A DNA stretch of 64,000 nucleotides, taken from positions 60,300,104 through 60,364,103 of the forward strand of contig CM037587.1 of NCBI GenBank assembly GCA_021018995.1. Reading direction: 5' to 3'. The position numbers and the translations under genes were made by a program. Source of the DNA: Chloranthus sessilifolius. Its lineage: Eukaryota > Streptophyta > Magnoliopsida > Chloranthales > Chloranthaceae. The notes beneath the pieces are model-generated. The model saw only the letters and a list, made by a program, of their open reading frames with translations. It was not told the DNA's origin and did no database searches. Positions 12,145 to 37,807 of this stretch are shown here, piece after piece. The first letter of the stretch is position 1. Each line of letters opens with the position of its first letter.

Positions 12145-12360
12145 GGCGTACGTATTACATACGCCCAGCAAATTTTACCCCAGTTTGGTCAGGCGTATAT
12201 ATTATATACGCTTGGCATTTTTGGGCCAAATTTGGCTGGACGTATATAATACATACGCCCAACATAGGTAGGGCCCACCACGGGCACCCACCTTCTCAGA
12301 TCTCCTCCAGTTTTCATGAAAATCACTGTACATAAACTGATGTATGTAATATATACACCC
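12145..12360 (+). repeat. T1 palindromic tag array in the LTR
   Basis: Four near-palindromes of about 21 bp, with consensus core GCGTATATAATATATACGC, lie at 12145-12165, 12192-12212, 12238-12260 and 12338-12360, with short A/T-rich spacers. They sit 280-500 bp upstream of the TATA box. Confidence 0.9.
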
Positions 12361-12639
12361 AGCCTAGCTACAATAACTGTCATCAGATGCTCGAAATTCC
12401 TTCATCGGGTTTGACCTCTTGACCATCCCCTTGCTTGAGGTGGATGTCTTAAGGTTGGTTGCACTCCGTTTGAGCTTATATGCAACCCTTAAGTCACCTT
12501 TGGTCTCACCCCATCATCTGCCATTGAAACCGGTTCCCCAAACCCCTAGGACTCTAAAAACTTAGAAAACCTTAGATGGGAGATTACCTAATTGCTAAAC
12601 CAATTAGCTCTTAAGTAACCCTCTAACCCACCTTTTCTC

Positions 12640-12647
12640 TATAAATA
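12640..12647 (+). promoter_or_regulatory. TATA box of the T1 LTR promoter
   Basis: CTCTATAAATAGAG is a strong plant TATA context. It is conserved at the matching position of the inverted T3 LTR (37356-37363). Transcription would start roughly 30 bp downstream. Confidence 0.7.
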
Positions 12648-13373
12648 GAGAAGCCCCCCCTCTTCCTAAGGGTTGAAAAAATTAGGGTTGAAAGTTTTTG
12701 AGCTTGAGAGAGAGAGCCCTAGTGAGAGAAAGTTCTCTTTTATTTTTCATTCTTCAACCAGAATTCCAGCATGCTTAGTTCACCCCTTTCAATCCATTTC
12801 AACCATTAGATCACCCCTTTTTAGTCAAGCTTAGTCTCTAGCTTCACCTTACACTTCCCATCTACCGAATCCTAGCATTAGAATCCATTCTCCTACCATG
12901 TAAGCCATTTAAAGCCATCAGAAGTACACCAAAGCGAAGGTCTTCCACGATGCAACAAGGGCCCGTGAGCTCTGGCTCACCCCTCTCTTCCCCTACCTTC
13001 TTGGTGTTTCCTCCGTCCAAGGATTCAAGCCGTTACGCCGCCGAAATTTCGATTTGGCTCAAAGGTTGATAGGACCATATTGCCTTCGGGCAAGCGGAAG
13101 CTCCGCCCATTTATTTTTCATTTTGTCCATAGATAGAGACCGCTACGTGCGGGTTGATCGGGTGCCTAAACCCTTCCCGATCGATAACCAAAGCCCCTAC
13201 CCTAGAGTCTTTGGCAAAAATCGGTAAATCAGAGTCATATTTAGCACTTCGGTGCTCAAAATATTGATTTAAATGTTTCCCGGGTCACCAAAAGCTCTGG
13301 GTGGCGACTCTACATTCATTCCATCATGAACGCATCGTCGCGACGGGTTCGAGAGAATCCATGGTCGCACAAA

Positions 13374-13391
13374 TGGCGACTCTGCTGGGGA
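13374..13391 (+). promoter_or_regulatory. T1 primer-binding site, tRNA-Arg type
   Basis: TGGCGACTCTGCTGGGGA follows the LTR after AA. It is of the kind reported as complementary to a plant tRNA-Arg 3' end in Ogre/Tat elements. The T3 copy (36612-36629, minus) differs by one base. Confidence 0.75.
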
Positions 13392-14855
13392 AATCACCCA
13401 AGCGCTTCCCCTCTTGTTGGCCTTTTTTTTTTAAATCTTTACTAACCATTGCTATTTTTCTGATTTTTTGTTATTTTTTCCTTCATTTTTGTTGTTTTTA
13501 CTAACATACTCACCCCTACGATTCGGTCCTTTAAGGGCCTTAGCCGATTGGCGGGCCTACCTGCGCCTTTAAATTTTAGTTTTTACGGTTTTATCATTTA
13601 AGCCGCCTTAGCCGTTTGGCGGGCCTGCTCGCATCTACTTTCCACGTCATTTAAATTTCAGTCATTTACGAGCCTTAGCCGTTTGGTGGGCCTACGTGCG
13701 CTCTTTATTTTAGTCATCATATCTCACCGTTGAATTCCAGCCCGTTGAGGCGGCACGGGCTTGTCATCCCCGACCCAAACTTGGACTTAAACTCACTCTC
13801 CTTTAAAACTCTGTAATTAAAAGTGAACCAACAGTGTGGGGACATAATCAAATTTATTTTTGCGTGTTTTGGATAGTTTTCGGGGGGTTTAGGCACAAAT
13901 ATAACTTACCCAGTTCCCAGTAAGGTGGCAGCCCTAGTGGTGATGATCCTGAAAAGAATCACCCCTTCCAGTACCTAAGAAGGCGCTTGCACCGGAGGTA
14001 TATCGGTTGGGTTGCCAATTCCGATCAAGCCGCAAAACCCGCAATGGTGAGAGCGTAGACAGCCCGAATTCAGCCATGTATCCCTAGGAAGCGGAAAGGA
14101 GTGACCCGATAACATACACAGCAGTCCTCGGGAGCATCCCTCCCAGGAAACCAGCTCAAAAAGACTCATTTTGGGCTTGCTGTTCACTGTCAAACCAAGC
14201 TGAAAGAATAGTTTTTGCTAGGCATATATATTAAATACGCCCAACCAAAAATCCTCAGAAATACTCAGGCGTATATAATATATACGCCCAGTCAAAATCC
14301 CCAGATTTAAGCAAGGCGTATATAATATATACGCCCAGTCAAAATCCCCAGATTTAAGCCAGGCGTATATAATATATACACCCAGCCATATCTGCTTAGT
14401 TTTGATCAGGCGTATATAATACATACGCCTAGTATAAACTGGGTTCAAGTAGCCTGATCTAAGGCCCAATCCACCACCCAAGTTCCCCGATTAGCGGTCT
14501 TAGTGCCCGCAGTAGCCTCCTGCATTCTATAACACCCAATATGCTCCCGCCCAGTCAAAAGAAGGCGACTTCTCATTGATTTGCTCCGGGGGATCGGGTC
14601 GTTTGCATTGATTCCCTTACCTTCAATAGAACGAAAGGGTTCCCTTTCGCTTCTTCCGAAGTGTGTCGGATCCTGACGTGGGCCCTATTAAAGGTGCATA
14701 TATCACCCGAGACGGGAATTTTCCTAGGGCACCAGATCATCATTCATTTAAATAGGGGAGTTAATTTCCATTAAAAAAATCTAAATATATATATATATAT
14801 ATAAAGAAAAATCAAAAACCCAAATATATTATATATATATATATATACTTTTGGT
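13392..14855 (+). other. T1 leader between primer site and gag
   Basis: There is no credible ORF; a leader this long is normal for Tat elements. It has degenerate repeats of TTAGCCGTTTGGCGGGCCTAC (13540, 13605, 13680), the tag array (14221-14430), a block CAAAAGAAGGCGACTTCTC (14560) shared with T2, and AT-dinucleotide runs (14787-14802, 14826-14848) just before gag. Confidence 0.6.
14221..14430 (+). repeat. T1 palindromic tag array upstream of gag
   Basis: Five copies of the T1 palindrome lie at 14221-14241, 14268-14289, 14315-14336, 14362-14383 and 14409-14430, spaced almost exactly 47 bp start to start. Spacers are diverged copies of CAGTCAAAATCCCCAGATTT. The array ends about 425 bp before the gag start. 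Confidence 0.92.
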
Positions 14856-17766
14856 GTGATCGTCGCTATAGCGACCTCGAACCCAACCTGTAGAAAGAGA
14901 ACCAGGAAGGTATTCGGCCCTTACCCAAGACATCGATACAACACTCGTCAACAGATCATGTCGAGAGCCGATACATCCCCACCATCATTCCCATCCCATT
15001 CCCATGTAGGAGAAGACCCGATCTCCGACGCCTTCACCCAAACCCGGTTCGATGTCATGGGTCCATTTTGGGCGCCCATGTTCGCATCCACCCCATCTCC
15101 CTCCCTTACATTCTCCCAACATACCCCCATCTCATTCCCTACAGAAACCCCTCATTTCCCAACTGACCCATACATCCCCATCTCCCATCCATACACCCTT
15201 ACCGCACCCCCCTACTCCCAAAGACTCCATCGGGAGCCCCATCCCCCGCCTACCTCCCACGTCCCATCCTCCTCATCATCCATTCCCCCTACATCCTATG
15301 TCCCATCCACCTCATCTCACATGCCGTCCACAGCACATGGCCCATCCACATCCCAACATACCCCCCCTATTTACTCAGGTCATGTCCAACTTTTCCCAAG
15401 GTATGACCAGTAACCCACCATCTTCCGGAGCCATACATCCATACCCTCAAAGCATAATCATCAATACCCCCCATACCCGGGTCATGCCCAATTTCACCCG
15501 ACCCCCTCCATCCTTGAGTGGGCCATCACCCTCCACTCTCACACCAGAACCCATGCCCTCAATGGAGGACATGAGAATGATGTATGCCCTGTGGGCTGCC
15601 TCTCGGAGCCCTACATCCCAAACCCCATATCCAGGTCTCCAAAACCTCCATACCCCATTCTCTCATGACCATGCCCAACCACCCATCATTCATACCATCC
15701 AAAATCCCCCACATCAATCCCAGGCCCAAGCCCACTCATCTCAAGCCCAAACCCACACAAATCCATGGGCCCAAGCCTAAATATCTTTAGAACCATGGGC
15801 CCAGGCCAACTCCCAAACCCAAGCTCAGGCTCAGGCCCAAGCCCATTAGACCCAAGACCACTCCTCCCAGGCCCAAACCCATCAGACCCACGCCTAAAAC
15901 CCTCAAGGCTCATGGGCCTAAGCCCAAACCCATCAGACCCAGACCCAGGTCCAAAACCCTCAAGGCCCATGGGCCCAAGCCCAAACCCCACCAGACTCAG
16001 GCCTAAGCCCATCAGACCCAGGCCCAGTTCCAAGCCCCCAGGGCCCTTGCACCCAAACCTATCAAACCCAGGCCCAAGGTCCATCACCCCACACCCAATA
16101 CCCACATGACCCATTAGCCTAAACCCAAGAAGGCCCATTGGCCAAAAATCATACCAACCCCCACACCCAGGCCCAAGGCCCATCAACCCAAGCCTTTCAA
16201 AACCATCAAGCCCAAATCCATCAAACCCCAGGCCCATCCACCCACACTCATCAAGGCCTGTTCACGAACCCCTTACCCCTCCACCAGTACCCTTCATTCA
16301 CCTATACCCCTTACGCCCCCATCCCGCCTCCAACAGAAAATTCGATCCACTCCATTCCTCAAACCCACTCCTACATCATCCCGCCACATCAACCACCCCC
16401 ACCCCCAGAATGTGCACCCAGCTCAGCACATCATTCATCCACAAACCACTCATCCATTCATTCCTTCCCATCCCCTACAAACCTTGTGGCCCCACCAGGT
16501 CATCCAACCCATCACCCCCCAAGTCCAAATAGCGGACCTCGCCCCTCACCAGTACAATGACCAACAGTACGAGGAGGACGAGATCCACAACAGTGGAAGA
16601 GTTTCCAGCTTCGACCCTCCCAGGCCCACCATCGTCACACCCAGGGCCAAACAAAATGGGAGGAGGCGTCCCTTCAAAGATCAAAAGAATCGACCAAAGA
16701 AAGAGCAGATAGCGAATACAAAAGTAGCTGATGAAGATGGGAGGAGTAGAACTGCATTCGACAGACTTTTCAGACTTATGTCTGTTCTCGGATGTCCCCC
16801 TGCCACAGAAATTTAAGATGTCATCATTCAATAAATATGATGGCATTGGCAATCCCATCGCTCACTTAAAATCTTACTATGGGGATATGTGCTAGTACAG
16901 CGGAGATGAACGACTCCTCATCAAAGTGTTCCAAAAGAGTCTAATGGGCCTAACACTGAGATGGTTCACATCCCTAGAACCATCCATGATAAAAACTTGG
17001 AAAGCTTTAACACACTTATTCCAAGAACAATATGTCTATAACATGGACATAGAGCCAAGGAAGTCGGATCTGGCCCGTTTGAAGCAAAGACATGATAAAA
17101 CTTTCAGTGCCTACTTAGGAAGGTGGAGGGCATTGGCCGCCCAGGTGACCCACCGGATTCTCGATGATGAGCAGATTGAATTGATAACCAAGGGAGCTCT
17201 CCCAGTCATCGCAGATTTTTGGTATCAAGAATCGCTCGCCGATTTGGTCCGAAATGCCAACCGTTGCGAAGATGCCGTTAGAGAGGGCACGTTGGGAAAG
17301 AGCATGGCCAACGGATTGAAAAACTGCTGAACCAAGGATTGAAAGAAGACCAGAGACAGAGGTACAGAACATTGTTTACCCCCAGGCCAATACCGATGCC
17401 CCCCTGATACAACTCCAGGCTGCACAACCACCCCCAGCCCGTTTCGAGCAAGCACTAAGGCCAAACAACGGACCGAGAGCCCCATTTACCCAGGAACAGA
17501 TGAGAGCACGATTCGAACGGGTGTTCATGCCGTTGGGGCAATCTTTAAGTGTCTTATTGCCAGTGCTGTTACAAAAGGATCTGGTCAATTTACTCCAGCC
17601 TCGCCCACCACCCAATCCAATCCCGAGAAACTATGACCCGAACCTGCATTGTAACTTCCACCAGGGACCGGGTCACCCTACGGACCGGTGCTTCCCACTA
17701 AAGCACGCGGTCCAAGATTTAATAGAAGTAAGAAAAATTGTTCCCCCGCCGCTTCCTCAAGGGTAG
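14856..17766 (+). pseudogene. T1 gag, Tat-type, frameshifted
   Basis: It encodes the capsid polyprotein. The start MIVAIATSNP leads into a basic motif RKRTRKVFGPYPRHRYNTRQ also seen in T2. A long Pro/Ser/His-rich region follows, shifting frame near 15330 and containing a minisatellite (15765-16250). DQQYEEDEIHN (16560) is shared with T2. The gag core (16810-17330) has KSLMGLTLRWFTSLEPSM and SDLARLKQRHDKTFSAYLGRW. A C-terminal knuckle with C-H-H-C spacing, CNFHQGPGHPTDRCFPLKHA, is at 17650-17710. Stops or shifts occur near 15413, 15780, 16560, 16816 and 17330. The starting ATG is chosen by match to T2. Confidence 0.75.
15765..16250 (+). repeat. GC-rich minisatellite inside T1 gag
   Basis: Variable 18-33 bp units of the type CAAGCCCATCAGACCCAGGC give Pro/Ser/Gly-rich peptides such as GPSPNPSDPRPKPSRPMG in several frames. 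Expansion or contraction here would readily shift the gag frame. T2 has a shorter relative at 27715-27900. Confidence 0.8.
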
Positions 17767-20411: not shown

Positions 20412-22030
20412 AAATACAAGAAGAGGTAGGAGTCACGAGTCTAGACGAGGAAGGTCAAATCGATGAGCCCCCTAATGAGCTCCTCAAACAATTTGTCGAT
20501 TTTGAGCATGGCCCTCCCCGATCGTCGAAGAGATGGAGGACGTCAATTTGGGCACCAAAGAGGCCCCTAGAATCACCAAAATCGGAACATCGCTGTCCCC
20601 TGCTGAGAGAAAAGGTATGATAGACTTTATTCGGACATACCAAGACATCTTCACATGGTCGTATGAAGACATGCCTGGTTTGAATACCGATCTGGTTGAG
20701 CATGAGTTGCCACTCTACCCTGATATTAAGCTGGTTAAACAGAAGCTGAGATGCCTCCGACCTAAATGGATGTTGAAGGTGAAGGACGAGGTCATTAAGC
20801 AGTATGATGCAAGTTTCCTCATGGTATCCAAGTACCCGTAATGGCTGGCCAATATCGTCCCCGTACCGAAGAAGGATGGGAAGGTTCGAATGTGCATTAA
20901 TTTCTGAAATTTCAACAAGGCAATTCCTAAGGGTGACTTTCCATTACCACACATTAATATCTTGGTCGATAACACTGCTAGGCACGAAATGCTCTCATTC
21001 ATGGATGGATTCTTGAGCTACAATTAGATTAAGATGGCAGAGGCCGACCGAGAAAAGACTGCGTTCATCACTCCCTGGGGTACCTTCTGTTACAAGGTGA
21101 TGCCATTCGGGCTCAAGAATGTCGAGGCAACCTATCAGAGAGCAATGACGGCCCTGTTCCATGACATAATTCACCGAGAGATCAAAGTGTATGTCAACGA
21201 CCTGATTGCCAAATCACCGAAAAGGGATGACCACCTGGTAAACCTCCAAAAGCTGTTCGAGAGGTTGAGAAAGTACAGGTTGCAGTTGAATCCCTAAAAG
21301 TGCACGTTCGGCACTATGTCAGGAAAACTGTTAGGCTTTATTGTCAGTAGGAGAGGGATTGAGGTCGATCCGACCAAGATCAAGGCCATCACTGAAATGC
21401 CACCACCGTCTACAAAGAAGGAGGTCAGAGGCTTTTTTGACAGAGTCCAGTATATCAGCCGGTTCATTACACAGTTAACTCCGATATGTGCACCGATCTT
21501 CAAGCTATTAAGAAAGGATTCACCAGTTGAGTGGAATGATGACTGCCAAGCTACATTTGACAAGATCAAAGGTTACCTCTTAAATCCTCCAGTATTGGTA
21601 TCACCTGTACCTGATAATGTACCTATCCACGATAGAGTTTTCCATGGGCTGTGTGTTAGGGCAGCATGATGAGACAAGAAGAAGAGAGCAGGCCATCTAC
21701 TGCCTGAGCAAAAAGTTCACTGATTATGAGACGCGCTATTCTCAACTTGAGAAGGCATGCTTAGCGCTCGTATGGGCTACTCAAAGACTTTGACACTACC
21801 TGTTATCCCAGGCCGTTCTACTTCGAGCACAGATGGATCCGTTGAAGTACCTGTTCAAGAAACCTGCTCTCACTGGTCGAACTGCACGATGGCAACTACT
21901 TCTCTCCGAATTTGACATTACTTATGTCACCAGAAGTCGATCAAGGGGCAAGCACTCGCTTATCATCTTGCTGAGAACCCTCTGTCGGACTATGAGCCTC
22001 TAAAGACTGAATTCCCTAATGAGGACATCC
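20412..22030 (+). pseudogene. T1 reverse transcriptase and RNase H
   Basis: It copies element RNA into DNA. The entry DIFTWSYEDMPGL (20650) is followed by IVPVPKKDGKVRMCI (20855), DFPLPHINILVDNTA (20935), VMPFGLKNVEATYQRAM (21100) and the active-site box VYVNDLIAKS (21190). The box should read Y-V-D-D, so a catalytic Asp is replaced by Asn. The connection (KCTFGTMSGKLLGFIVS) and RNase H segments (QAIYCLSKKFTDYETRYSQLE, 21690) follow. Stops at 20839, 20906, 21025, 21296 and 21791, and frame changes near 20530 and 21660, make it inactive. Confidence 0.85.
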
Positions 22031-22035
22031 TGTTC

Positions 22036-22644
22036 ATGACTGAAGAAGATACGGAGGAAACAGAGGAGTCCTGGGTAATATACTTTGATGAGGCATCGCA
22101 TGTTGAAGGCCAAGGAGTTGGCGCCATTCTTATCTCACCAAGAGGATCGCATGTACCCATCTCAATCAAGTTGAACTTCCCATGCGCCAACAATATGGCT
22201 GAGTACGAAGCCTGTACAGCTAGTTTACAGGTGGCTCTTGATCTGAATATAACTCACCTCAAGGTCTTTGGGGATTCACTGTTAATCATATGCCAGACCA
22301 ACGGAGATTGGAATACCAAGGATGAGAAGCTGATCCAGTACCATGAACATCTTGAGGGTCTGATAACCTGCTTTGAGGAAGTCACCTTCTCCTATGTGCC
22401 ACGAACAAGAAATCGGTTTGCTGATGCCCTGGCTACCCTAGCCTCTATGGTTGAGATTTCGTACGGGGTTGAGATGAAATCGATCATGATAGAGCAGAGG
22501 GACGGACCGACATTCTGTCACCTGATCGAGGGATCTACCGAGTTAGATGATGAGCCACCCTGGTTCTCAGACATCAAGAATTTCCTCGAGACTCGAACTG
22601 TCCCTGAAGGAACATCGAATGTAGACAGACGCACCATCCAGTGA
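22036..22644 (+). CDS. T1 second RNase H (archaeal-type, Tat lineage)
   Basis: An intact 202-codon segment. It carries WVIYFDEASHVEGQGVGAIL (first catalytic Asp at about residue 20), NNMAEYEACTASLQ (Glu), KVFGDSLLIICQ (Asp) and RFADALATLASMV (last Asp), so all four metal-binding acids are present. It degrades RNA in RNA-DNA hybrids during reverse transcription. Having a second RNase H between the ordinary one and integrase is diagnostic of the plant Tat lineage. It continues in frame into integrase after a TGA at 22642. The ATG is probably internal to a polyprotein. Confidence 0.85.
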   Translation: MTEEDTEETEESWVIYFDEASHVEGQGVGAILISPRGSHVPISIKLNFPCANNMAEYEACTASLQVALDLNITHLKVFGDSLLIICQTNGDWNTKDEKLIQYHEHLEGLITCFEEVTFSYVPRTRNRFADALATLASMVEISYGVEMKSIMIEQRDGPTFCHLIEGSTELDDEPPWFSDIKNFLETRTVPEGTSNVDRRTIQ

Positions 22645-23808
22645 TTGGCAACGAACTATGTCATCTGCGGCGATCTCCTGTACAGACGGTCTCATGACAA
22701 TGTTTTGCTCCGACGCCTACTCGAGAGAGAAGCAGTTGAGATCATGAAGGATATCCATGAAGGAGTCTGCGGGGCACGCGTCAGTGGACACATGCTCACT
22801 AAGAAAATCCTAAGGCAAGGATACTTTTGAACCACTTTAGAGACTGATTACTGCAAACACGTTTAGAAGTGCTACAAGTGCCAAGAACACTCTAGTCTAA
22901 TACATGCTTCGGTCATTGATTTACACAGCATGACTACTCCTTGGCCGTTCGCCACCTAGGGTCTCGACTTCATCGGCAAGATCAATCCTAAGGCTTCCAA
23001 CGGACATCAGTTCATCTTCGTCGCAATGGAGTACTTCACGAAGTGGGTAGAGGCGGCCTCCCATGCGAGCATTAAGTCCAGTTATGTCGAGAAGTTCATC
23101 AAGAACAACATTTACAGATTCGGCGTGCCAAAGGATATCATCACTGATAATGGCACTAATTTTGCTAATAGGCGCATCCAGGCCTTGTGTGAGCAGTTCC
23201 AGATCAAGCATCATCGCTCATCCCCATATAGGCCTCAGACGAACGGAGCTGTAGAAGCGACCAACAAAACTCTGATCCGCATTTTGGAGAAGATGATAGT
23301 CACTTATAGAGATTGGAGTGAGCAGTTACCCTTCGCGCATTGGACCTATAGAACTTCTATCTGTCCCGCTATAGGGGCAACACCATTCTTCCTTGTGAAT
23401 GGAACCGAGGTCGTGCTACCCGTTGAGGTCGAAGTACCGTCACTCCGTATCCTTTTGGAATCCCATCTGCCTGAAGCTGAGGAGGAAAGATCCTATTTTG
23501 AACAGCTAGATTTGATTGACGAGAAGAGACTCCTAGCTTTGTGTCACACCCAGGTCTATCAGAGGAGAATTGCACGTGCCTACAATAAGCATGTTCGCGC
23601 TCGAGACTTGCAGATAGGTGACACGGTACTGAGGAGGATTTTCCCATCTCTCCATGCCGATCCAAGAGGGAAGTTTAAGCCGAATTGGGAAGGACCCTAC
23701 GTCATCCGAGAAGTATTGCCGGGATACGCCGTTCGCCTCGCCACCATGAACGGAGACCACTTTCATGAGCCCATCAATGTTGGATACCTCCGGAGGTTCT
23801 ACTCATAG
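22645..23808 (+). pseudogene. T1 integrase
   Basis: It inserts the DNA copy into the genome. The zinc-binding part (HEGVCGARVSGHM, then CKHV..KCYKCQEHS) contains stops at 22828 and 22864, and another at 22960 beside GLDFIGKINP. The catalytic core is otherwise open from 23026: first Asp in LDFIG, second in ITDNGTNF (23135) and Glu in GAVEATNKTLIR (23250). The C-terminal domain GPYVIREVLPGYAVRLA ends GYLRRFYS with a stop at 23806. No chromodomain. Three stops disable it. Confidence 0.85.
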
Positions 23809-23938: not shown

Positions 23939-24964
23939 CTACACACGTCGGGCCTGAACTAAGCTACACATGTGCGCCGATTGGCGGGTCTCCCAGAGGG
24001 CTGCTATGAGGTCTAGGTCACTGAGAGAACCCTGAGAGAATATCAGAGAGCACAAGGGTGGCCTCATAGTGCACGACACGTGTTGGGTATATCCGAATTG
24101 AAGGAGCACCCGAGATGGGAAATAGTGGGTACTACCAGTCAACCCCAAAAGTGTGATACCCTCACAATCCCTAGAGCGGACAAGCGGAAAGGTGTCGTCC
24201 ATCCAGGGAAGTTGCCAGATCAACTCTGCATCAGTAGCACTGGGTCAGAAAGCCCCGACCCACATCCCCTCTTACAAGCAAAATCTCGGCACGGGCCCCA
24301 TGATAGCCAAATGCTCTCCTAACCAAATTTGAATGAGGAGTGGACTCTCGCTAAGAATCCCGACCTGGCCCGAAGCCGAGGCATCCAGGCCCTGATACAT
24401 CTCAGCCAGGACTAGGTGTACCAGTGAACGACCTCCCTCCAATTCGGTCAAGACATCGCATAACCCGAGGGAAAATGTCTCGCCCCTAATAAAGAAAAGA
24501 ACTTCTGACAATAAATAAAGGGCAAAGGACTTTACATTGAAAGGATCTTGGATAGACAACTTTCAGAGACTCGAGTCGCCGAAAAGTTCTCTCAGGAATT
24601 TCACCGAGCACCTGGTGGGCCCCCTGGCGAAGCCCTTCTCATACACACCCTTTTTCAAACCGAGAACCGCGTGGACCGCCTTTGCATACCCCAATTTGGG
24701 CACCACTTTGGCAAGTCCCAAATGCATCCTCAAGACAGTAATAGAGGCTAGCTCTTCCAAGGTTGGGGTGAGCTCCCTGGACCCAAATCTAAAGACATGG
24801 GCCCTATGGTCCCACGATGCCAAAGCCGCCTGCAGAAGGTTGGGCAACAGAGGAATAGCAAGGAAAGAGGAAAGACGGGATAAGCCGAGGCGATCCAGAA
24901 CAACGAGCTCGCCATCAGCCAAGCTATCACACCATTTTTGCAAAAAATTGGGCCCCGTGTCCAA
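23939..24964 (-). pseudogene. T1 antisense ORF 1, DUF7745 / plant-mobile-domain-like
   Basis: On the minus strand, from ATG at 24964, MDTGPNFLQKWCDSL leads to a helical region and FRFGSRELTPTLEELASI (residues about 59-76). This resembles the signature of the DUF7745 / plant-mobile-domain group. The next segment (24559-24272) has SFALYLLSEVLFF, VLAEMYQGLDASA and PLLIQIWLGEHLAIMG. The last (24223-23939) has EGITLLGLTGSTHYFPSRVLLQFGYTQ. Frame changes at about 24560 and stops near 24270-24230 break it. The biochemical role of the family is unknown. T1 palindromes lie 240-310 bp upstream of its start (25205-25273). Family name from memory. Confidence 0.55.
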
Positions 24965-25668
24965 ACAGGGAAGTATACTAGCCCCAGTCCCCCGTATGAG
25001 AATTTAGGTCAAGGAGCGGGTCCATTGACGTACAAAGATGTTCTTTATAAAAATCAGTCAATGTAGGGCAATGGATCCGCTTGTAGGGAGAGCAAAAGAA
25101 AAAAAAAAAAGAGGAAGGGGCAAAAAGGCCAAGTCTAGATGAAAAGAGAGGCAAAGAGGGCCAGGTTCGGGTTATGAAGAACCCCGTTGAGCCCAGTTAT
25201 ATGAGGCGTATATATTATATATGCCAAGGCAAAATTTAAAATAATTTCCTAGGCGTATATAATATATACACCCAGCTAAAATTGCAGGGAAGTGTGGCTC
25301 CCCTCACATTGGTCCATTTTTTACTTCCCCCAAAAGGGACGGGTTTCGCTTGGTCTACTTTTTTATCCCAGGGCAGCCCACAGTCGGGCACGCTCACGCA
25401 CCCATGGGAAATCCTCGGATGATGTGGTATCCGTGGGTCATATACGGAGGATCATATGCGGGCTCAATCTCATCATTGGAGGGGCTCTGGCCCCCTTCAT
25501 GCCAAAGAAAAGGAAACCATAAAAGCGGAGAGATAACTAAACAAAGCGTTCATATAAACCATGAAAATCATAAAACCATTAAAAAAAAATTGTTGTTTAA
25601 AAGATTACATATTCCCCAATAAACAAAAGTCTAAACTGTTTCAATGTTTCCAATTTTCAGAAAATAAA
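24965..25668. other. Non-coding spacer between the two antisense genes
   Basis: It contains a short A-run (about 25089-25110), the tag pair at 25205-25273, and sequence without convincing coding potential. It is the presumed upstream region of antisense ORF 1 and the 3' flank of the plant-mobile-domain gene. Confidence 0.4.
25205..25273. repeat. T1 palindromic tags upstream of antisense ORF 1
   Basis: Two copies of the T1 palindrome, at 25205-25225 and 25252-25273, again 47 bp apart as in the gag-upstream array. Confidence 0.9.
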
Positions 25669-26285
25669 CTAGTCTTGGGCAGCCCCCTTCGACTTCTTCC
25701 GGTGCCGGGTCGCGCTTTGAAAAGTACGAGTCTCTCCCACCTGAGTCCACGCTTGAGAGATGCGGCCGAGCAGAGAGCGCGACTCCTTTTCACGAGCACG
25801 CTATAGGAGCACACCAGAGGCCATCAGGTAGGAAAACAAGCAGAAGGTAAATAAGAAAATGATTAGGATTGGTCAGTATTCACTCACCACCTCAGCCTCT
25901 CTAAGCCCAAAGATGTTGCGGTAATATTCGGCTTGGTTCACGGCCGACTCATAATTCTGCACATCAAGAAAAAGAGGTGTCAGTCACACAGGTCATCAGC
26001 ATAGTTCAAGAAAAAAAGAGAGCAAAGCAACAAGGGAGAGATTACCCCGGGGATCAGCTTAGGAGGTGGGATCCGAATAGCTTCAGCGGATATGCGTGCC
26101 TTCTCAGCCACATCGGCACACATACGTGATAGGAACGCATTATCCAAGCGCTTAAAGGTCCCCTGGACCTGGGCTGGCGAACTGCTAGAAGCATCAGCAC
26201 CGGAAGGGTCAGAAGGTCCAGCACCTGTAGCCTCATCAGGAGCAGCTGCCTCATCCCCCTCATCTGAGTCGCCACCCTGCCCAAA
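25669..26285 (-). CDS. C-terminal exons of the T1 antisense plant-mobile-domain gene (partial)
   Basis: Three minus-strand exons are open with canonical splice sites and phase 0 throughout. Exon a, 26285-26046 (80 codons), runs from acceptor TCTCTATAG to donor GG|GTAATC; it starts FGQGGDSDEGDEAAAPDEAT, acidic and Ser/Ala/Pro-rich, and ends with a helix (FKRLDNAFLSRMCADVAEKA). Exon b, 25956-25888 (23 codons), is NYESAVNQAEYYRNIFGLRE. Exon c, 25800-25669, ends in a basic tail, RHRKKSKGAAQD, then TAG. The upstream exons should be the domain at 31200-33160, now separated by T2; that link is inference. This part has no stop codons, unlike sense gag-pol. Confidence 0.6.
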
Positions 26286-26344
26286 CTATAGAGAGAAACA
26301 ATTTTTGTTCAAATAGCAGGGCAATCAAGGCAATCACAGGAAGG

Positions 26345-26437
26345 TATAGTTGCGCCAATGCAAAAAATCCCACAAATACACTTACGCCAGCTTTAATCTG
26401 GGACCTTTTGCTCTGGCGCCACTATTAGTTGCGCCAG
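26345..26437 (+). repeat. T2 palindromic tags upstream of gag
   Basis: A half-site TATAGTTGCGCCA (26345-26357) and a full palindrome with core GCGCCACTATTAGTTGCGC (full extent 26413-26437). The array sits 390-480 bp before the T2 gag start, the place taken by the unrelated T1 palindrome in T1. Confidence 0.88.
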
Positions 26438-26826
26438 TGTGGTTCTGAGCAACCCCAGTCTGAATCTGTGACCTATTTCACTCCTCGGACTCTCCGATCA
26501 GTGTGTTTAGTTTCTCTGTTTAAGCCCCATATTTTTTGACACCCAATACGCCCTCGTCGATCAAAAGAAGGTGACTTATTCTTAATTCATTTCAGGGGAT
26601 CGAGTTGTTTACATTGGTTTTCGTGCCTTCAATAGATCAAGGGATTTCCCTTTGATTCTTCCGAAGAGTTTTGAAACCTTTTTCGCGGGACTTATTTAGG
26701 GTACGAGATCCACCCAAGAAGAAAATTCAAAAGGCCCCAGAACCCTCATTTCTTTTTTACTTATAAAAATCCAAACAAATCAAAAATAATAAAACAATAA
26801 TAATAATAATTTTTTTTAATAGAGTC

Positions 26827-29560
26827 TTGATTGGTGCCGGCACAACGGCATCAACGTACCCTTCATCATCCCGTAAGGGAAGAAGAAGGAAACTTTACGG
26901 GCCCCATCCGAGGCACCCGTACCTAACCCGATACCAAGACATGTCATGGGTGGTGGACTCGGCTTATGCCGATCTTGACTCATCCCCGCTACATTCTCCA
27001 ACCCATTCCCACACCGAAGAGGCCTTCAATTCCACCCCCCTCACCCATGCAAACCTCACCATAACCATCCCGTTCGGTGCCCCCATTTTCCCTTCCACCA
27101 TTTCCCAAAATACCCAAAATTTAAATTTCCCAACATTTTCCCAAACCATGCTTTCGCCCATGGCCATCTCTAACCCATCTCACCTCCCTTCCACACCCAT
27201 TCAAAACCCATCCTCTACCTTGATCAACATGCCCTATATCTCATCCTCCCAACCCGATCCACCCACATCCATCCATACCACATCCAATCCCCCACACATC
27301 CCTCAATTTACCCAAGCCATGGCCAATTTTCCTTTCCCATCTTCCACTTTCATGCTCCATACATCTCTCCCATACATACTAAATCCATCCACCGATGCCT
27401 CACCTCATTTTCCTAATCCACCATGTATCCTACCCCTCACCCGGGCCATGCCCAATTTTACCGAGAACATGCCTAATTTTTTCTATTCCCATACCCCTCC
27501 AACCATTAAATAGCCCATCTCCATTCGATCCCCCTTTCATAGTAATGATGGAGGAGATGTTCCAAACTTATAACAAATGGAAGGTCTCTCAACACATCCC
27601 CTCTCATTCACACCATACTCCCATGGATCCATCCCATACCCTAACAAGCCTCCATGCCTCATTCCCCCATGACCCCCATCATCCACACTACCCAAACCCT
27701 CACTACCCATATGTCTCGAGGCCCCATGGCCCAAAGTCCCACAACCCATACCTATCAAGGGCCCATGGCCCAAACCCATCAAGGCCCATTGGACTAGACC
27801 CACCAAGGGCCATGGGCTATACCAATCAAGGACCCATGGCCCAGACCCATCAAGGCTCATGGGGCCAGACCCATCAAAGGCCCATGGCCCAAACCCATTA
27901 ATAGCCCATGACCGAAGCTTATAATGACCAAGGCTTTGTGGTCCAACCCTCCTAAGGTTTCATAGCCCAAAATCAAGCCCAACAAAACCTTGGAGCCTCA
28001 CACCCATACCCTTCAAAAATCTTTCAGAATTTCACCCATTCACAACCCTCATACCGAGCTCAAACCCATGCCTTATATCAACCCCAGTTTACCCATATCC
28101 CTACATCCCAAAGTCAGCTTCAAACCTTCCCCCATGCTCAATGGCCTCATCAGGCCCCGCTCCAAAATCTAACTTCCACTCATCCCATCACCCAACAAAC
28201 TTTCCCTCATCCCCAATGGGCTCACCTAACCACCCCTACTCATGTCATTCCCACTCAGTCCATGCAACACCAGCATGAGAATCCCACCCTTACTGCACAC
28301 TATGTCGACCAACAATATGAAGAGGATGAGATTAGGAATAATAGAGTCTATGCTGGGGCATTAACCAGCCTTAACCCTCCCTAAATCATTTCCCACCCTT
28401 GGCAGCACAAAGTGAAATCTAACCAACTGCTGAGAATGCGGCCCCCATATCTAAGGAGTCAGATCAGCTGAAACAATAGTTGGACAAGATATAAAAGTAG
28501 TTGACGAAAATGGGTGGTGCAGAAATCCACGCACGGACTCCACAAATTTATGTTTGTTTGCTGAGGTCCCCTTACCTCCCAAATTCAAGATGTCAGCGTT
28601 TGACAAATACAACGGCACCGACAATCCTATTGCACACTTCAAGTCCTACTGTGGGGATATGTGCTAATATGGAGGGGAAGAAAGACTGCTGATAAAGGTC
28701 TTTCAAAAGAGTCTGATCGGTCCGGCCTAGAGATGGTTCACATCTTTGGAACCATCTATGAAGAAAACATGGAAGGACTTAATGCACTTGTTCTAGGACC
28801 AATATATCTATGACATTGACATCGAACCGTGTAAGTCTGACTTGGCCTGGTTAAAGCAGAACCCAAATGAGACCTTCAGCGATTATCTAGGGTGGTGGAG
28901 AGCACTAGCAGCTCAGGTCAGAAACAGGATACTTGACGATGAGCAGATTGAAATGATTTTCAAGAATACTCTACCAGTGATCTCAGACTTTTGATGTACT
29001 AGCAACAGTCCAGTTTTACTGATCTGGTGAGGAACACCAATCGCTGTGAAGATGCCATCAGGGAGGGGCGCCTGAACAAAAATATACCAAGTAGAGCCAG
29101 TGGGGTTAGAAGGTTTTCAGAATAAAGGAATGATAAGAGAACCGGGGCCGATGTCCAAAGCATTGCCAATACCAACAATAACATAACCCCTTTCCAATTT
29201 CTAGCGGCCCAGCCAGCACCAGTCAAAACTGAGTAAATGTAGAGAGTAGGAAACGGTCAGGGAATGCAAATGACTATGGAGTAGAGGAGAGCCTGCTATG
29301 ACCGAGTGTTTACACCCTTGGGGCAATCACTAAGTGTACTTTTGCGTTTATTAATAGAAAAGTGATTAGTTACTATTCATCAACCGCAACCTCCTCCCCA
29401 CCTAATCCCAAAGAACTATGACTCGAATATCCACTGTAATTTTCATCAGGGTCAAGGTCACCCGACTGACCGCTGCTTTCCATTAAAGCACGCGATCCAA
29501 GATTTGATTGATGCCGAAAAAATCATTCCACCGCCACCTTCTCAAGTAAACTAGCACGCA
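26827..29560 (+). pseudogene. T2 gag, heavily decayed
   Basis: The start region (MIGAGTTASTYP, then RRRKLYGPHPRHPYLTRYQ) parallels T1. Pro/His/Ser-rich sequence follows to 27513, then a frame change to FDPPFIVMMEEMFQTYNKW and a minisatellite (27715-27900) giving AHGPNPSRP-type repeats. VDQQYEEDEIRN lies at 28305. The core (28570-29090) holds KVFQKSLIG, RWFTSLEPSM and WRALAAQVRNRILDDEQIE, with several stops. The C-H-H-C knuckle CNFHQGQGHPTDRCFPLKHA is at 29430-29490. Too many stops for function. Confidence 0.75.
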
Positions 29561-31190
29561 AACATCCATCAAGTGTCGTTGCCCTCACATCCTACCGGAG
29601 GAGTAGGTCCCAGATCCACCATCGGGATGGTAGAGGGATATGAGGAGGAGTTCAAGTTTGACCCATCAGACTACATCAGTGATCGGGAGAGCTATGTGGC
29701 ACAATTGCCAAGGAACTGTTAAGAAAGGAATATTGGGGTGATTGAACCCCTGAATTTATCAGACTACTTTCCCAGTCCAACTCCACAAGTTGAACCTTTA
29801 GATCTTAGGATTTATTTTCCATCACTCACTCCTATCAATTATTTGCATATAAATGCATACCTACCACACACCACCACCCCTGTCAATTACCCGATCACCC
29901 ATCATCCCCCCAATCCCCCGTTTGCACCTATCGGCTACCAATGGCCTACTTTTACCCCTTTTCCACCAGTGCCACCACCCTCAAGCTTCACCACCCCCAT
30001 TTGGCCTAATTTTTCCACTCAATCAACTATTACCAAGGTAAATCAGGTGCTGCCCACACCTCCTGAGCTCGTAGTGTAAGTGCCTCCGATACTGGTAGTT
30101 ATACCGTTTCAGATCTCGGGACCGACCTATGATCCCCATCAGGTCCCGCTGAGTTATGAACAAATAGATGTCAATGTTGGCAGCCACAAGAAAGGGGCAA
30201 TGGACTTCATGACCTGATTCGAAAAGATCTCAAAGCAACCGGAAGAACCGGTAGCAGTACAAGCCCAACCCGAAGGAAAGAAAGACAGCGCAGTGAATCC
30301 TTTCGAGAAAATGAGTCGATAACATATACTGAAGACTCTGCTGAGAAGAATTTATATGGGATTTAGTGATGACATCCCCACTCTATTTTCAAGCATTAAT
30401 GGGGGCGTTAAAGAATGCGCATGTGTCACTTCAGGTTAGCCCGGACGAAGTTCGGGCAAATAATCGGTCAAGTGATGGCTCCAAATGCCATTTCATTTTC
30501 TGATGCCGATTTATTTGAGGAAGGAGGTAGTCACTCGAAGTCTTGAAATATAATAGTTGAGTCTGGAAATATGGTAATCCCCTTAGTTCTAATTGATAAT
30601 GGGTCCGCATTGAATATATGCCCATTAAGAACCGCCACAAAGATCGGGGTAGATCCATGCATGTTGAGGCCCACGAGAACCAGTGCCAGAGGTTTTGACA
30701 ATACCCGGAGAGAGATAATGGGAGAAGTTGACCTTGAACTGTTGATTGGGCCAATAACCTTCTCCATATTGTTTCAAGTGATGGACATCAAATCCTCATT
30801 TAATCTGCTGCTGGGGCGCCAATGGCTACATGAGGTTGGAGCCATACCCTCCACATTGCACCCGAAACTCAAATTTATATCTGGGCATAAGATCATCACA
30901 ATCATCGGTGAGGGGCACAGTGAGAAAGAAAATGCCACCAATAGTGTTGAAAAGCCTAAAATGATGGATGTCCCGCACACCACCGTGGACATCGACCTCC
31001 ACAATTTCGAATACGAGGTGTCGGCAATACTTCTGGATCCCATCGAGGGCATCATTCCAAGAATCGGAGGGAGAATGGTAGCTACGGCGGCCATTCTCCA
31101 AAAGTGGGGCAACTAAAAAGGAAGGGGACTTGGGCCCAGACTCCAAGGCAGAAAGGAACCCGTCACACGCAAGGCGGGTCAGAATGGGAT
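29561..31190 (+). pseudogene. T2 linker and aspartic protease with G-patch remnant
   Basis: A Pro/Tyr-rich linker (29738-30079) precedes the protease. From 30571 an open 181-codon frame has PLVLIDNGSALNICPL and SFNLLLGRQWLHEVGAIPST, closely matching T1. It ends at ATAAILQKWGN with a stop (31114), just inside the G-patch. The G-patch continues past the stop as KGRGLGPRLQGRKEP. Homology to T1 ends at about 31190; the RT that should follow is absent. Confidence 0.75.
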
Positions 31191-31194
31191 AGGG

Positions 31195-33160
31195 CAGAGA
31201 CTCATACCACATCTGATATCCCCCTTGGAAAAAGAAGGTCATCAATGGGGACCCCATGATGGAGAAAGCGAGTGGTAAGCACGTCAGTGGAACCTTCAGG
31301 AGCCAACACATCGACTGGAGGAGCTTGGGGCACAGCGAAAAGAAGACGGTACTGATGAACCACCCTCTCTCCTAGGTAATGGGCCCTAGCCCAGGACCCA
31401 TAGAAGAAAATGATGCGTTGGTCTAACAAAAAATGAGAAGGACCCACTGCAGCCAGGTTCCAGAAGGGAGATCCGACGTAGGGGTCAAGAAGCAAAAAAA
31501 GAGGAGGGATATATACATGTGGTCAAAACCCACAGCACGAAAGAACTATCAAACTTGTAAAGAGAGAAATTCTTATACCTGCTCAGGGATCAACAGATCA
31601 AACTGGGAGCGCAGCCCTAACTCCAGGTGCTTCATGCCTAAATCCCGACGGCGGTTCGCGTGCCAATTGCTCATAAGGGGGAACGTAGGAACTTCAGATA
31701 GAAGCAGAGGGTGACCAGGTTGGAAATGCAGATACCCCCAAACCTGAGAAGGCAAGCAGATAAAAATAGATATGCCATAAAAGGAAAAAGTTAGACAAAT
31801 TAAAACCAGAGGATAAAATATCTCAAGTGCGGGCCAAAAGCCCACAACGGAGCTGGACTCCCCATGTACGGCTCATGCCAGGCTAGACATGAGCACCGCA
31901 TTTCCAGCACCGCCCCAATCAAACCGATGCACGTTGTCCCAGTTCACCATAAAACTAAGAAGGGACAATGAGACCAGCCCTCCGCTAGTATTTGAAAGAA
32001 GAGTCTTACTTAAAAGGAACAACAGAGAAATACGAGCCAACATCAATGCACGCTCTGGCTCGAGATAAATGGCCGCATCAGGCTGGCCCAGATCCATTAA
32101 CTCATGAGACTCAAACAAACTAACCAGCTAGGATAACTTAACTTCAGAACCATGAACATTCCCTAAGGTTAGGTAGACCCTTATCAGCCGAGTCACCTCC
32201 TCCCTATCAGGTGTGCGGGTAAGTGTCATTGGCACCCCTCCAATGCGAACCCCAGTGATCATGGACTAGTCCACAGGTGTAAGGGTCATCTCAGCCATGG
32301 CCATATGAAACGTCATGGTCTCAGGGCGAAAGCTCTCTATCAGGGCCTTCACATAGGCCGTGTCGGCCCTCATAGCGGGGCATGAAATAAAATCCCCAAA
32401 ACCGGCTTGAGCAAGCAAGTACTTCACTACTGGGGGAAGATAGAGCACGAGGCACTGGAGATCGAACCAGCCACCCCGAAACATGATATGAGGTAAAGGT
32501 TGTAAACAAAAGGAATCTATCAAATAGGAGCGAAGTGGTATAGCAAAAGCATCAAAGGAAAAGAAAAGGGCTCATCTGTTTACCTGGCCAACAATCCTGA
32601 AGTTGGAGATATGGGTGTGCTGACAATGGAGGAGGCCGGTATGGGCGGCTTCACCTTACATTTCATACTAGGGCTGAGAGGAGCGCTGAGAAACGATAAA
32701 CTACTCCCCATGAGGACCATAGGCCATCTCTGGCCCCTCCTGTTGATCTTGCCCTTCGTTGCCAGACATCCTGAAAATGTGGAACACATCGGTATAAGAA
32801 AAGGTTGCTAAAAAAAAAAAAATGAAAAAAAGAAGAAAAAAGAGAAGGAGGAAAAGGGGGAGAAATGCACTAATCCATCATGGAAGAAACATAAAAAAAA
32901 AAATGAAAAAAGGGGAACATAGGCATAAAAAAGGAATCACATATGCTTGAAAGAAAATAAAAAGCATTAATCTTTCACCACAAAGAGGAAGAACATCAAG
33001 CATTTCAAACAAGAATCATTATCAAAATCTAAAGGAAAGGTGAAAGAAGGATGATGATTACCTTCAATAGGAGAGGAAATAGATCTAAAGATCGGCGGAG
33101 AGTGAATGCTCTTGATCGGCACAAGCGACTCTTGGTGGTAGAACTCAAGTAAAATCAAAC
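31195..33160 (-). pseudogene. T1 antisense plant-mobile-domain gene, N-terminal and core part
   Basis: The minus strand reads from a 5' exon (about 33158-33060, VPIKSIHSPPIFRSISSPIEG before a GT donor) through Ser/Pro-rich sequence (32789-32580) to the domain core. LLAQAGFGDFISCPAMRAD, FRPETMTFHMAMAEMTLTPVD and MITGVRIGGVPMT lie at about 32470-32240. Then come WDNVHRFDWGGAGNAVLMSSL (31940) and YLGERVVHQY...VPIDDLLFPRG (31370-31220). These match plant mobile domain (PF10536) proteins. Stops interrupt it near 32264, 32128 and 31865. It breaks off at T2, and its likely C-terminal exons are at 25669-26285. The role of the domain is not established; related host proteins act in silencing and meristem maintenance. 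Confidence 0.6.
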
Positions 33161-33271: not shown

Positions 33272-33340
33272 GGCGCATATAATATATACGCCCGGCTATT
33301 TTCGCTGCGGATTTGCCAGGCTTATATATTATATACGCCC
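33272..33340. repeat. T1 palindromic tags upstream of the antisense plant-mobile-domain gene
   Basis: Two T1-type palindromes, at 33272-33293 and 33319-33340, spaced 47 bp and 110-180 bp upstream of the first antisense exon. Confidence 0.9.
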
Positions 33341-34115: not shown

Positions 34116-34165
34116 CACGTCCTTAAGGTGTATCAGCATGGCAAGTTGATCTGCCTAAGGATACA

Positions 34166-34320
34166 TGCAAAAAAAAAGAGAAGAAAAAAAAAAGAAAGAA
34201 GAAGAAAAAAAGAGAAAAAAAAAAGAGAGGAAGAAAAAAAAAGAAAAAAAGAAGAAAAAAAAAGGAAGAAAAAAAATAGAAGAGAAAAGAAAAAAGAGAA
34301 GAAAAAAAAAGAAGGAGAAG
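34166..34320 (+). repeat. 155 bp homopurine tract
   Basis: An almost pure A/G strand of irregular AAAG/AAGA units. The Lys/Glu-rich ORFs read from it are compositional artefacts. Its mirror-like purine strand could adopt triplex structure. Confidence 0.85.
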
Positions 34321-35612: not shown

Positions 35613-35624
35613 CAAAGAGGGGCA
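35613..35624 (+). promoter_or_regulatory. T1 polypurine tract
   Basis: CAAAGAGGGGCA ends two bases before the TGTAGACACCC start of the 3' LTR. This is the plus-strand primer position and confirms that the LTR at 35627 is a 3' LTR. Confidence 0.75.
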
Positions 35625-35626
35625 TC

Positions 35627-35806
35627 TGTAGACACCCAAATTTGGCCCAAGTCCCAATCAGTCTGTACTCTGAGAGAGATGTACTCCTGTGCTTCCGATG
35701 GCACCCCTGAACCCTTAGGAATTGCCCTGAACCCTTAGGAACCTACCTAGACCTTTAGGAATCACCCTGAACCCTTTTAGAACCATTCTCCCAACCCTTA
35801 GAGACT
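35627..35806 (+). repeat. T1 3' LTR, first ~180 bp only
   Basis: It aligns from TGTAGACACCCAAATTTGG with 11738-11917 of the 5' LTR. I counted about 13 differences, nearly all transitions. It stops abruptly after AACCCTTAGAGA where the inverted T3 leader begins. Confidence 0.85.
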
Positions 35807-36611
35807 AAAAGTGCTCTCCAGTTTGCTTGACAGCAGCAGGCCTAGTCCGAAATGAGTCTCCAAACTGGTTTTTGGTGGAAGCTGGGCTTCTGGGGACCGA
35901 CAGTTTATGTGATCCACTCTCTTTCTCACCGAACGTAAGGGTTTAAGGCCGAATTGGGTTCACTACCGCTCACTTTTTTCTCGGGTTTTAATCTTGGAAT
36001 GAGAAGGTTACCCACCCGATATACCTCAAGTGCAAGCACTTTTCTTAGGTACTAGGTGGGCTGGGACTTTTTCGGATCATCACCACTAGGGGCTGCTGTC
36101 GTACTAAGACCCGAGTGGTTGTATGTGTGCCTAAATAATCTAACCCTTTAAAAATCTACCCTGCAAAAATTAATTTAGATCCCCCTTGTTGGTTCAATTT
36201 TATTTTTCACTTTTAAAGGAATTTTCTTAAGTTCAAAGACCGGAAGTGATGACCCTGTGCTACCTCTACGGGCCGGCGTTCACTGTTGAAATATGATTGC
36301 GGAGTTAAAAGCGCAAGTAGGCCCGCCAAATGGCTAAGACACTTTAAATGACGAAAATGTAAAGAAATTTAAATGCAAAGCACAGGTAGACCCGCCAATC
36401 GACTAAGGTGCGAAAATATAAAGAAATTGAATGATGGTGTGCAAGTAGGCCCGCCAAACGGCTAAGGCACGTAAATGACGTAAAAGTTGGGGTAAGTAAA
36501 ATGACGTAATCAGAGGGGTGAGTAAAAAAATAATATAAATAGATAGCAATAAAAAAGTTAGTAAAATAAAAAATAAATGGTCCAAGTTCAAGGGAAAGCT
36601 CTACTAGCTAC

Positions 36612-36629
36612 TCCCCAGCAGAGTGGCCA
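36612..36629 (-). promoter_or_regulatory. T3 primer-binding site, tRNA-Arg type
   Basis: On the minus strand it reads TGGCCACTCTGCTGGGGA, one base different from the T1 site, two bases from the LTR end. Confidence 0.75.
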
Positions 36630-37355
36630 TCTGTGCAACCGTAGGATTTTTTACGATCCCGCCGCGATGATGCGCTCCCTAACAAAAATATAAAGTCGCC
36701 ACCCGGAGCTTTTGGTATCTCAGGAAACCTAGATCATTTTTATAAGGACCAAAGTGCCACAAATATGACTTTGAATCCGGTCCACACCAAAGGTTCTTAG
36801 GTAGGGGCTTCGGTTATCGATTAGGAAGGTGTTAGGCACCCAATCAACCTGCTTAATGCGGTCTCTACTAACGGCCAAAACAATAACAATATAAATGAAA
36901 TGAAAAAAGCTTTTTCTTGCTCAAATGAGTCTTAAAATCCTATTTGTGTCCCTCCGTTCCTACCAAAAATTTGGCGGCAGAACGGCACAAATGGGGGGAT
37001 AGAGGAGGAACCGAGAAGGTAGAGGAATAGAGGGGAGAGCCGAAGCTCTCGGACCCTTGTTATATCATGGTGGAGCCTTGCGTTGGCTTGCTTCGGTGAG
37101 CTTTTGAAGGCTTGTATGGTAGGGAATATGGTTTTAACTCCTAAGGTTTGATAGCTAAGAGGTAGAGGGAGAAGGCAAATGGGTAACACACACCTAAACT
37201 AGAAGATCTAAGGTAGAAAATATGGCTAAAAGGAGGTTTTAGAATTCTAGATTTTATATGAGAATGGTGCACCAAAGGGAGAAAGATCTTCTCACTGAAG
37301 CTCTTTCTCTCTTAGGCAAAGTTTCTCAACCTCTAACTCAAGGGCAGGGGGGTTC

Positions 37356-37363
37356 TATTTATA
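37356..37363 (-). promoter_or_regulatory. TATA box of the T3 LTR
   Basis: TATAAATA on the minus strand, in the context CCTATAAATAGAA. It is the positional counterpart of the T1 LTR TATA box. Confidence 0.65.
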
Positions 37364-37645
37364 GGAAAAGGGTGAGTTAGGAGGCTACTTAGAGGCTAAG
37401 AAAGATTAAGAATTAGGTAATCTAGCATCTAAGGTTTCTTAGGGTTTTTGGAGCCTTGAAAAATGTGAGAAGGTGCTCCAATGGTGGATGATTGGATGAG
37501 GCTTTAAACCTCTTAAGGAGTTGTACATAGATAGTAAATGGGTGCAACAGAACTAGTAAAACGCACCCCAAAGGTTAATATGGTCAACAAGTCAAACCCC
37601 AATCTCAATTTTTGAGGTAAAAATCAGAGGTTACTGTTCATATGT

Positions 37646-37807
37646 CTGGCACAACTATTAGTTGCGCCAGGCATATGCACAGTAAAACAGTGCATGGAAT
37701 AGTTCCTGGAAGTTGGTTCACCGAGGTGGGGTCCACTTTATAACTGGCGCAACTTAACCAATGAGGTGGGGTCCACTTTATAACTGGCGCAACTATTAGT
37801 TGCACCA
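37646..37807 (-). repeat. T3 palindromic tag array in the LTR
   Basis: Full palindromes of the GCGCAACTATTAGTTGCGC type at 37646-37670 and 37784-37807, with a half-site CTGGCGCAACTT at 37744. A near-duplicated 40 bp spacer, GAGGTGGGGTCCACTTTATA, lies between. The array is about 285-450 bp upstream of the TATA box, the same position as the different T1 tags. Confidence 0.9.

Follow-up and report, generated by a model that had tools for sequence, protein, structure and literature searches.

Palindromic tag arrays that vary as sets among Tat-like retrotransposons with antisense plant mobile domain genes in Chloranthus sessilifolius

The window analysed here, the 64,000-nucleotide stretch C4:60300104-60364103 of a Chloranthus sessilifolius assembly (2.17 Gb, 32 contigs), holds a retrotransposon, T1, that carries arrays of one short palindrome, hereafter the tag, at four distant places. 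We find that T1 is a single element extending from 11739 to 35804, and that it is an old long terminal repeat (LTR) retrotransposon, since the starts of its two LTRs are 93% identical over 178 bp (35627-35804 vs 11738-11915). Two genes lie on the opposite strand between its integrase and its 3' LTR, and both encode a plant mobile domain (PMD, PF10536); we refer to them as PMD-A and PMD-B. A fragment of a related element, T2, is nested in the PMD-B gene at about 26339-31187, so that the tag arrays at 25205 and 33272 both belong to T1. The features, in window positions, are as follows.

11739..13370 (right end approximate), + strand: T1 5' LTR, matching the LTRs of eight further copies at 79-89% identity, each as one piece or two
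12145..12359, no strand: LTR (U3) tag array of T1, units at 12145, 12192 and 12239 plus a degenerate unit at 12339
13374 (start): primer-binding-site-like TGGCGACTCTGCTGGGGA after the T1 5' LTR, read from the sequence
14221..14429, no strand: leader tag array of T1, before gag, five units (14221, 14268, 14315, 14362, 14409) at 47 bp
16896..17327, + strand: gag fragment of T1 (Retrotrans_gag, Pfam E 4.4e-14)
21916..22641, + strand: RNase H-like domain of T1 (RVT_3, PF13456, Pfam E 4.6e-20), read as the Tat-clade aRH
22960..23805, + strand: integrase core of T1 (rve, Pfam E 3.1e-13)
23942..25003, - strand: antisense PMD-A of T1, in broken open pieces (Pfam PMD E 7.7e-05 and 0.002 on pieces, below cut-off)
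25205..25272, no strand: tag array 3 of T1, upstream of antisense PMD-A, units at 25205 and 25252, 47 bp apart
25280..26338, - strand: 3' part of antisense PMD-B of T1, interrupted by T2; matches another copy (L012) up to window 26338, and the order is homologous in other copies
26339..31187, + strand: T2, a CAAC-family fragment (leader, gag, protease-like) in T1 PMD-B, with a tag at 26415 and a half-site at 26346-26355
31188..32571, - strand: 5' part of antisense PMD-B of T1, broken (Pfam PMD E 1.7e-05, below cut-off)
33272..33339, no strand: tag array 4 of T1, upstream of antisense PMD-B, units at 33272 and 33319, 47 bp apart
35627..35804, + strand: start of the T1 3' LTR, 93% identical to 11738-11915 and ended by T3
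35805..38166, - strand: T3, LTR and leader of the CAAC family, reaching as far as the first leader tag, with LTR tags at 37648 and 37786 and a half-site at about 37747

The tag is a 21-bp odd palindrome with one central base, and tags stand in arrays of mostly 47-48-bp units. With at most three mismatches allowed on both strands, tag 1, the palindrome of T1, gives 23 matches at 12 distinct sites between 12146 and 33338 (0.01 expected from shuffles), which bears out the claim of an earlier note, made from this DNA alone, that the same tag stands at four places of T1; tag 2, the palindrome of T2 and T3, gives 6 matches at 3 sites (26416, 37649 and 37787; 0.00 expected from shuffles). Units of the T1 arrays follow one another at 47 bp in each of the four places; the exception, at a distance of 100 bp, is the degenerate unit at 12339, which is the fourth of the LTR copies counted in the note. 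The note had called the two palindromes unrelated, which they are not: they have 7 of 10 arm bases in common, and both fit one scaffold, GGCG-NNNN-TA(A/T)TA-NNNN-CGCC, with the inner 4-mer, or half-site, TATA in tag 1 and CAAC in tag 2. Requiring 10 or more of the 13 scaffold bases, we count 16 such palindromes in the window, none of them outside 11.7-38.2 kb.

Genome-wide, the scaffold GGCGNNNNTAWTANNNNCGCC is found at 34,550 sites, compared to 3 for the reversed control pattern, and exact 19-base counts are 9,776 for the TATA tag (4,939 + 4,837) and 12,638 for the CAAC tag (6,312 + 6,326). Other half-sites occupy the same scaffold, each with a reversed control of 0: the class GGCGTGNN has 1,116 sites, with TGTG, TGTA and mixtures among the matches listed, the class GGCGCATN has 1,093, mainly CATG and then CATC among the matches listed, and the CAAG tag has 119. 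Only 6 of the 34,550 sites have a purine as the first variable base in both arms (reversed control 2), and in the YA class 326 sites have a central G or C (control 0); the rarity of both indicates that the scaffold is really GGCG-Y...TAWTA...R-CGCC. Mismatches per 296 number 2 and 5 at the core TA and 12-37 at GGCG. The DNA helix has 10.5 bp per turn, so that 47-48 bp is close to 4.5 turns, which would put adjacent palindromes on opposite faces of the DNA. By eye, many of the 26-27-bp spacers are loosely palindromic as well, like AGCCATTTT...AAATGGCT (12166-12191, 14242-14267 and others, including L036 and L038), and each array unit may hold two alternating dyads.

The tags occupy four homologous places: the LTR U3, the leader before gag, and the regions upstream of antisense PMD-A and of antisense PMD-B. 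Eight further TATA copies, chosen because several tag-1 matches fell together among the first 100 listed, put arrays at these same places, although the set is incomplete in some of them: in the interval from pol to the 3' LTR copy A has a single tag, and copy G has no leader tag at threshold. In a CAAC element (L029 and L030) each of the four has CAAC tags. In other lineages the same places hold TGTG, TGTA, CATG, TATG and some scarcer 4-mers; 15 short sequences retrieved for other tags show TGTG, TGTA and CATG in combinations of the four places, adjoining homologous LTR, leader and PMD sequence. For the earlier note, an ordinary dispersed repeat outside these elements would have counted against its reading, and we see no such repeat in the places examined. 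In the window no tag lies outside the elements, and the first eight tag-1 matches listed (L001-L008), which were not selected in any way, are without exception part of T1-like sequence and come from about two elements.

Loci were also sampled by PMD-A, blind to the tags. A PMD-A protein query from a CAAC element had its best 150 of 10,592 candidates scored, and 20 of 20 loci sampled from those 150 (95% to 80% identity) have arrays, with CAAC in the majority. A query from a TGTG element (clade III), scored over the best 150 of 7,680, likewise gives at least one tag 5' of PMD-A in 20 of 20 sampled loci (84-70% identity), so that tags stand at the expected place in 40 of 40 overall. By majority half-site the clade-III loci are 10 TGTG, 4 TGTA, 3 CATG, 2 TATG and one CATG/CAAC tie. 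This typing required 9 of 13 scaffold bases, a threshold that 8% of shuffled windows also pass; with 10 of 13 required, all 20 loci keep a tag (two in 18 of them and three in 13), compared to 1.3% of shuffled windows with any. Array-4 windows, placed by guess, were taken at six clade-III loci chosen for differing array-3 tags. An array is present in three of the six: TATG accompanies TATG, TGTG accompanies TGTG, and one array is mostly TGTA compared to TGTG at array 3.

The check proposed in the note was whether tags within one element match each other better than tags at the same position of different elements, and they do. Across 84 arrays from 30 elements, with mixed sets included and only pairs at different positions compared, half-site identity is 0.892 within elements (85 pairs), a figure inflated by the choice of loci mostly through tag matches, vs 0.528 at the same position of different elements, and none of 5000 reassignments reaches 0.892. 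For clade III alone (29 arrays, 18 pairs) the values are 0.837 vs 0.628 (0/5000), again with inflated concordance, as most of these elements were picked by two same-class matches a few kb apart. A smaller first run of 48 arrays, without the mixed elements L046-L048 among others, gave 0/5000 overall and 5/5000 for clade III (18 arrays). The 40 PMD-A loci and the six array-4 windows make up the unbiased part of this evidence. The spacers behave differently from the tags: their identity is 0.51 across positions of one element and 0.49 between families at the same position, compared to 0.64 at the same position within a family and 0.34 when shuffled. Since at least five tag types occupy the same places, and since agreement inside an element is seen for the tags but not for the spacers, the set-wise, concerted replacement proposed in the note is supported.

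The domain content of T1 places it near known elements, which we compare from excerpts of papers cited by PMC number. The RVT_3 domain lies directly before rve, the position of aRH in Ogre and Retand (PMC6317226), and is preceded by a weak RT_RNaseH_2 match (21298-21666, E 0.0022, below cut-off), so that T1 has the second RNase H between RH and integrase that marks the Tat clade (Ogre/Retand side, Ty3/gypsy). PMD was assigned above the Pfam cut-off in copies with intact frames (PMD-A of L015, E 1.7e-16; a PMD-B piece of L012, E 5.4e-16), which agrees with an Ogre eORF carrying a plant mobile domain, a marker that may not be exclusive to Ogre; the excerpt of PMC6317226 describes the second RNase H in Ogre and Retand and PMD in 57% of Ogre elements. 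Retand, in PMC11963269, has antisense ORFs (open reading frames) between pol and the 3' LTR, antisense TRP28 and tandem repeats, and its author suggests a regulatory role for the extra antisense ORFs. TRP28 (PF04195) gives no match at E <= 0.1 among the antisense pieces scanned (an earlier scan used E <= 0.01). Seven antisense pieces match PMD, DUF7745 or nothing, and none of them the VANC-type domains DUF1985 or DUF287. PMD-A has no homologue at E <= 0.001 among 1460 candidates in the protein database and a single chance-level match to PDB sequences (E 0.64). In tea plants, 175 phasiRNA loci are reported at plant mobile domain genes (PMC10673657), some of which might be retrotransposon PMD genes.

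A trans-acting recogniser, as the note had suggested, is our best inference from these sequence patterns. On balance we think it probable that the tags are binding sites of an element-encoded factor, most likely PMD-A or PMD-B, that coevolves with its sites. The tags would act like operators, bound by a symmetric, probably dimeric, sequence-specific factor, and the arrays stand at what are likely the transcription-control regions of the element, in U3, in the leader, 5' of PMD-A and 5' of PMD-B. Conserved parts of the protein would contact the constant scaffold, and residues that change from lineage to lineage would contact the inner bases. A symmetric site whose middle drifts between constant outer and inner parts, and which is largely alike at all control regions of an element, is as expected of operators for one dimeric protein of drifting specificity. 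Once specificity drifts, only copies whose full array set follows would be served, and all four arrays would change together, passing through one-step and half-hybrid intermediates. The probable purpose would be activation, or relief from silencing, of the element's own promoters, with related families ignored. The PMD proteins suggest themselves as candidates, since two of the arrays lie 5' of their genes and no other further genes are recognised in the element; in the excerpt of PMC7156037, recognition of a promoter motif by a PMD complex is put forward as a possibility.

Beyond the inflated concordance, several observations weigh against such an element-encoded recogniser. The first LTR unit of TATA elements is regularly a variant (TGGA/TATG, TATG/TATG or TACG/TATG). 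In L046 and L047 (C1:112828600-112831600 and C1:113287600-113290600), array 4 is CATG with CAAG/CAAC and the LTR is half CATC and half CAAC, the same mixed set in two copies, which may be an intermediate; L048 mixes CAAG, CATC and CAAC, and TGTG_36 (L036) has TGTG in its LTR and mostly TGTA in array 4. The within-element uniformity claimed in the note thus holds as a genome-wide tendency, and not strictly. The leader array of L029 has half-hybrid sites, CATG/CAAC for example, at its edges; these and the mixed tags could be intermediates of change, or else relics or tolerated sites. Of the six guessed array-4 windows, three lack an array and one is mostly a step away from array 3. Faster evolution of PMD between families is not seen in the main part of PMD-A, which is 58% identical in amino acids compared to 55% for the protease region; only the C-terminal part of PMD-A is less alike (40%), and no specificity region was identified.

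An unlikely alternative that also invokes protein binding is that the tags are sites of host factors, with lineages differing in which paralogue of one host DNA-binding family they use. A common scaffold with a variable centre suits a family of related factors, and the array positions are promoter-like, but a host factor does not readily account for half-hybrid intermediates, nor for each lineage having its private tag, and the tags accompany PMD-A in every one of the 40 loci sampled through that gene.

We hold it rather improbable that the tag works as an RNA hairpin, with an 8-bp stem and a UAWUA loop in the transcript and a structural, packaging or small-RNA-generating role; a hairpin-type role has reportedly been proposed for the LTR palindromes of Sireviruses. 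The arm changes are compensated and the loop-like TAWTA core is nearly constant, as a hairpin would have it, and the LTR and leader arrays are probably transcribed. The centre base is mostly A in the leader (30 A, 5 T, 1 G), but goes both ways over all arrays scored (A 96, T 51, G 1). Mismatches in the sense orientation show no excess of G-U over A-C (G-U 109, A-C 145, other 73; in LTR and leader alone, G-U 27 and A-C 43), which gives no support to the selection on hairpin RNA that the note had offered as its other explanation; for arrays 3 and 4 read in antisense, wobble-type changes outnumber other transitions (102 vs 82), not significantly. Structure by itself also leaves equal 4-mers at distant sites of one element unexplained.

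Homogenisation without any recogniser, in which template switching or gene conversion copies units between the sites of an element or between RNAs packaged together, appears likewise improbable. All arrays have the 47-48-bp unit in common, and the near-identical neighbouring units of the T1 leader point to tandem duplication, but whole-unit copying would carry the spacers along, and these are about as different within an element as between families (0.51 and 0.49) while tags within an element stand at 0.89. Finally, ordinary family divergence of an old, functionless tandem repeat, of the lineage-specific kind known in Tat elements (PMC11963269), is very improbable, given palindromes far better kept than their spacers, a nearly invariant core and several kinds of perfect compensated palindromes at the same places.

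The earlier note knew of no named system that matches, but the VANC/VANDAL system of Arabidopsis is much alike, with another protein and another transposon class. In excerpts of PMC5735166 and PMC10398659, VANDAL elements (MULEs) carry arrays of a short motif in non-coding regions of one transposon family, the motif differs between related families, and coevolution with an element-encoded, own-family trans factor is proposed; VANC21 and VANC6 act on different short motifs, each arrayed in non-coding sequence of the VANDAL family to which the protein belongs, and silencing is relieved there (PMC5735166). The tags described here are likewise family-specific motif arrays in non-coding regions. 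VANDAL is a DNA transposon, whereas T1 is an LTR retrotransposon; VANC bears DUF1985/DUF287, whereas the candidates here are PMD proteins; the VANDAL motifs are 8-9 bp and directional, compared to 21-bp palindromes on a fixed scaffold; and binding and anti-silencing, which are predicted for the tags, are demonstrated there. The VANC21 motif YAGTATTAY contains the TATTA core of the tags, a coincidence to check and not a sign of homology.

Among LTR retrotransposons, Ogre and Retand (PMC6317226, PMC11963269) resemble T1 in the second RNase H, the Ogre PMD and the Retand antisense ORFs and tandem repeats; the excerpts of these papers describe no palindromic tag set across LTR, leader and ORF promoters, and Retand has antisense TRP28 in place of PMD. 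In PMC11963269 the string 'palindrom' occurs twice, in a reference title. A search of the literature on palindromes with Tat, PMD, Sirevirus, Ogre or leader, with subscription journals mostly outside its scope, found no such tag sets among the papers listed. Sirevirus LTRs are said to have a palindrome-rich regulatory part (Bousios and colleagues; a 2016 maize study). Sireviruses are Ty1/copia elements, whereas RVT_3 directly before the integrase suggests a Tat-like Ty3/gypsy element here, and the tags also stand outside the LTR, are mostly of one type per element and are linked to PMD genes. MAIN/MAIL1 and the 'DOWN' promoter motif (PMC7156037) provide a parallel in which PMD proteins are proposed to work through a promoter DNA motif; these concern host genes, and direct binding is left open by the authors in the excerpt.

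The extra antisense ORFs of Tat elements are now paired with a list of candidate target sites, which makes their function testable by binding assays, and the natural variation amounts to a specificity series, with several 4-mers on one scaffold beside sequenced proteins. It is conceivable, though we regard it as somewhat doubtful, that these Tat elements possess a private lock-and-key code, in which PMD reads the scaffold by conserved contacts and a variable 4-bp half-site by drifting ones, each lineage recognises its own promoters only, new codes emerge by single steps via half-hybrid sites, mutually blind families come to share one genome, and sequence-specific anti-silencing has been invented a second time, independently, in LTR retrotransposons. 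If true, this would provide a mechanism by which a retrotransposon lineage splits into families that take no notice of one another, as well as candidate DNA-binding domains whose specificity can evolve, and it might have implications for the action of related host PMD proteins.

The note had placed a second palindrome at homologous places of two separate elements, T2 and T3; the tags are there, but from sequence the two look like halves of one CAAC element, broken at the first leader palindrome. With a relative, L048, as reference, T3 stops at the start of that palindrome and T2 begins at about its centre, which hints that the palindrome was the point of breakage. An inversion that rejoins T2 and T3 fails in its simple form, since T1 PMD-B is continuous across T2 with ~100 bp lost. 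Elsewhere in the window, an ORF at 18315-19667 contains a G-patch domain (Pfam E 1.2e-05), and its T2 counterpart is a weak protease match (E 0.0049, below cut-off). A 215-bp tandem repeat occupies 260-904 in three copies, the second and third being 93% and 75% identical to the first.

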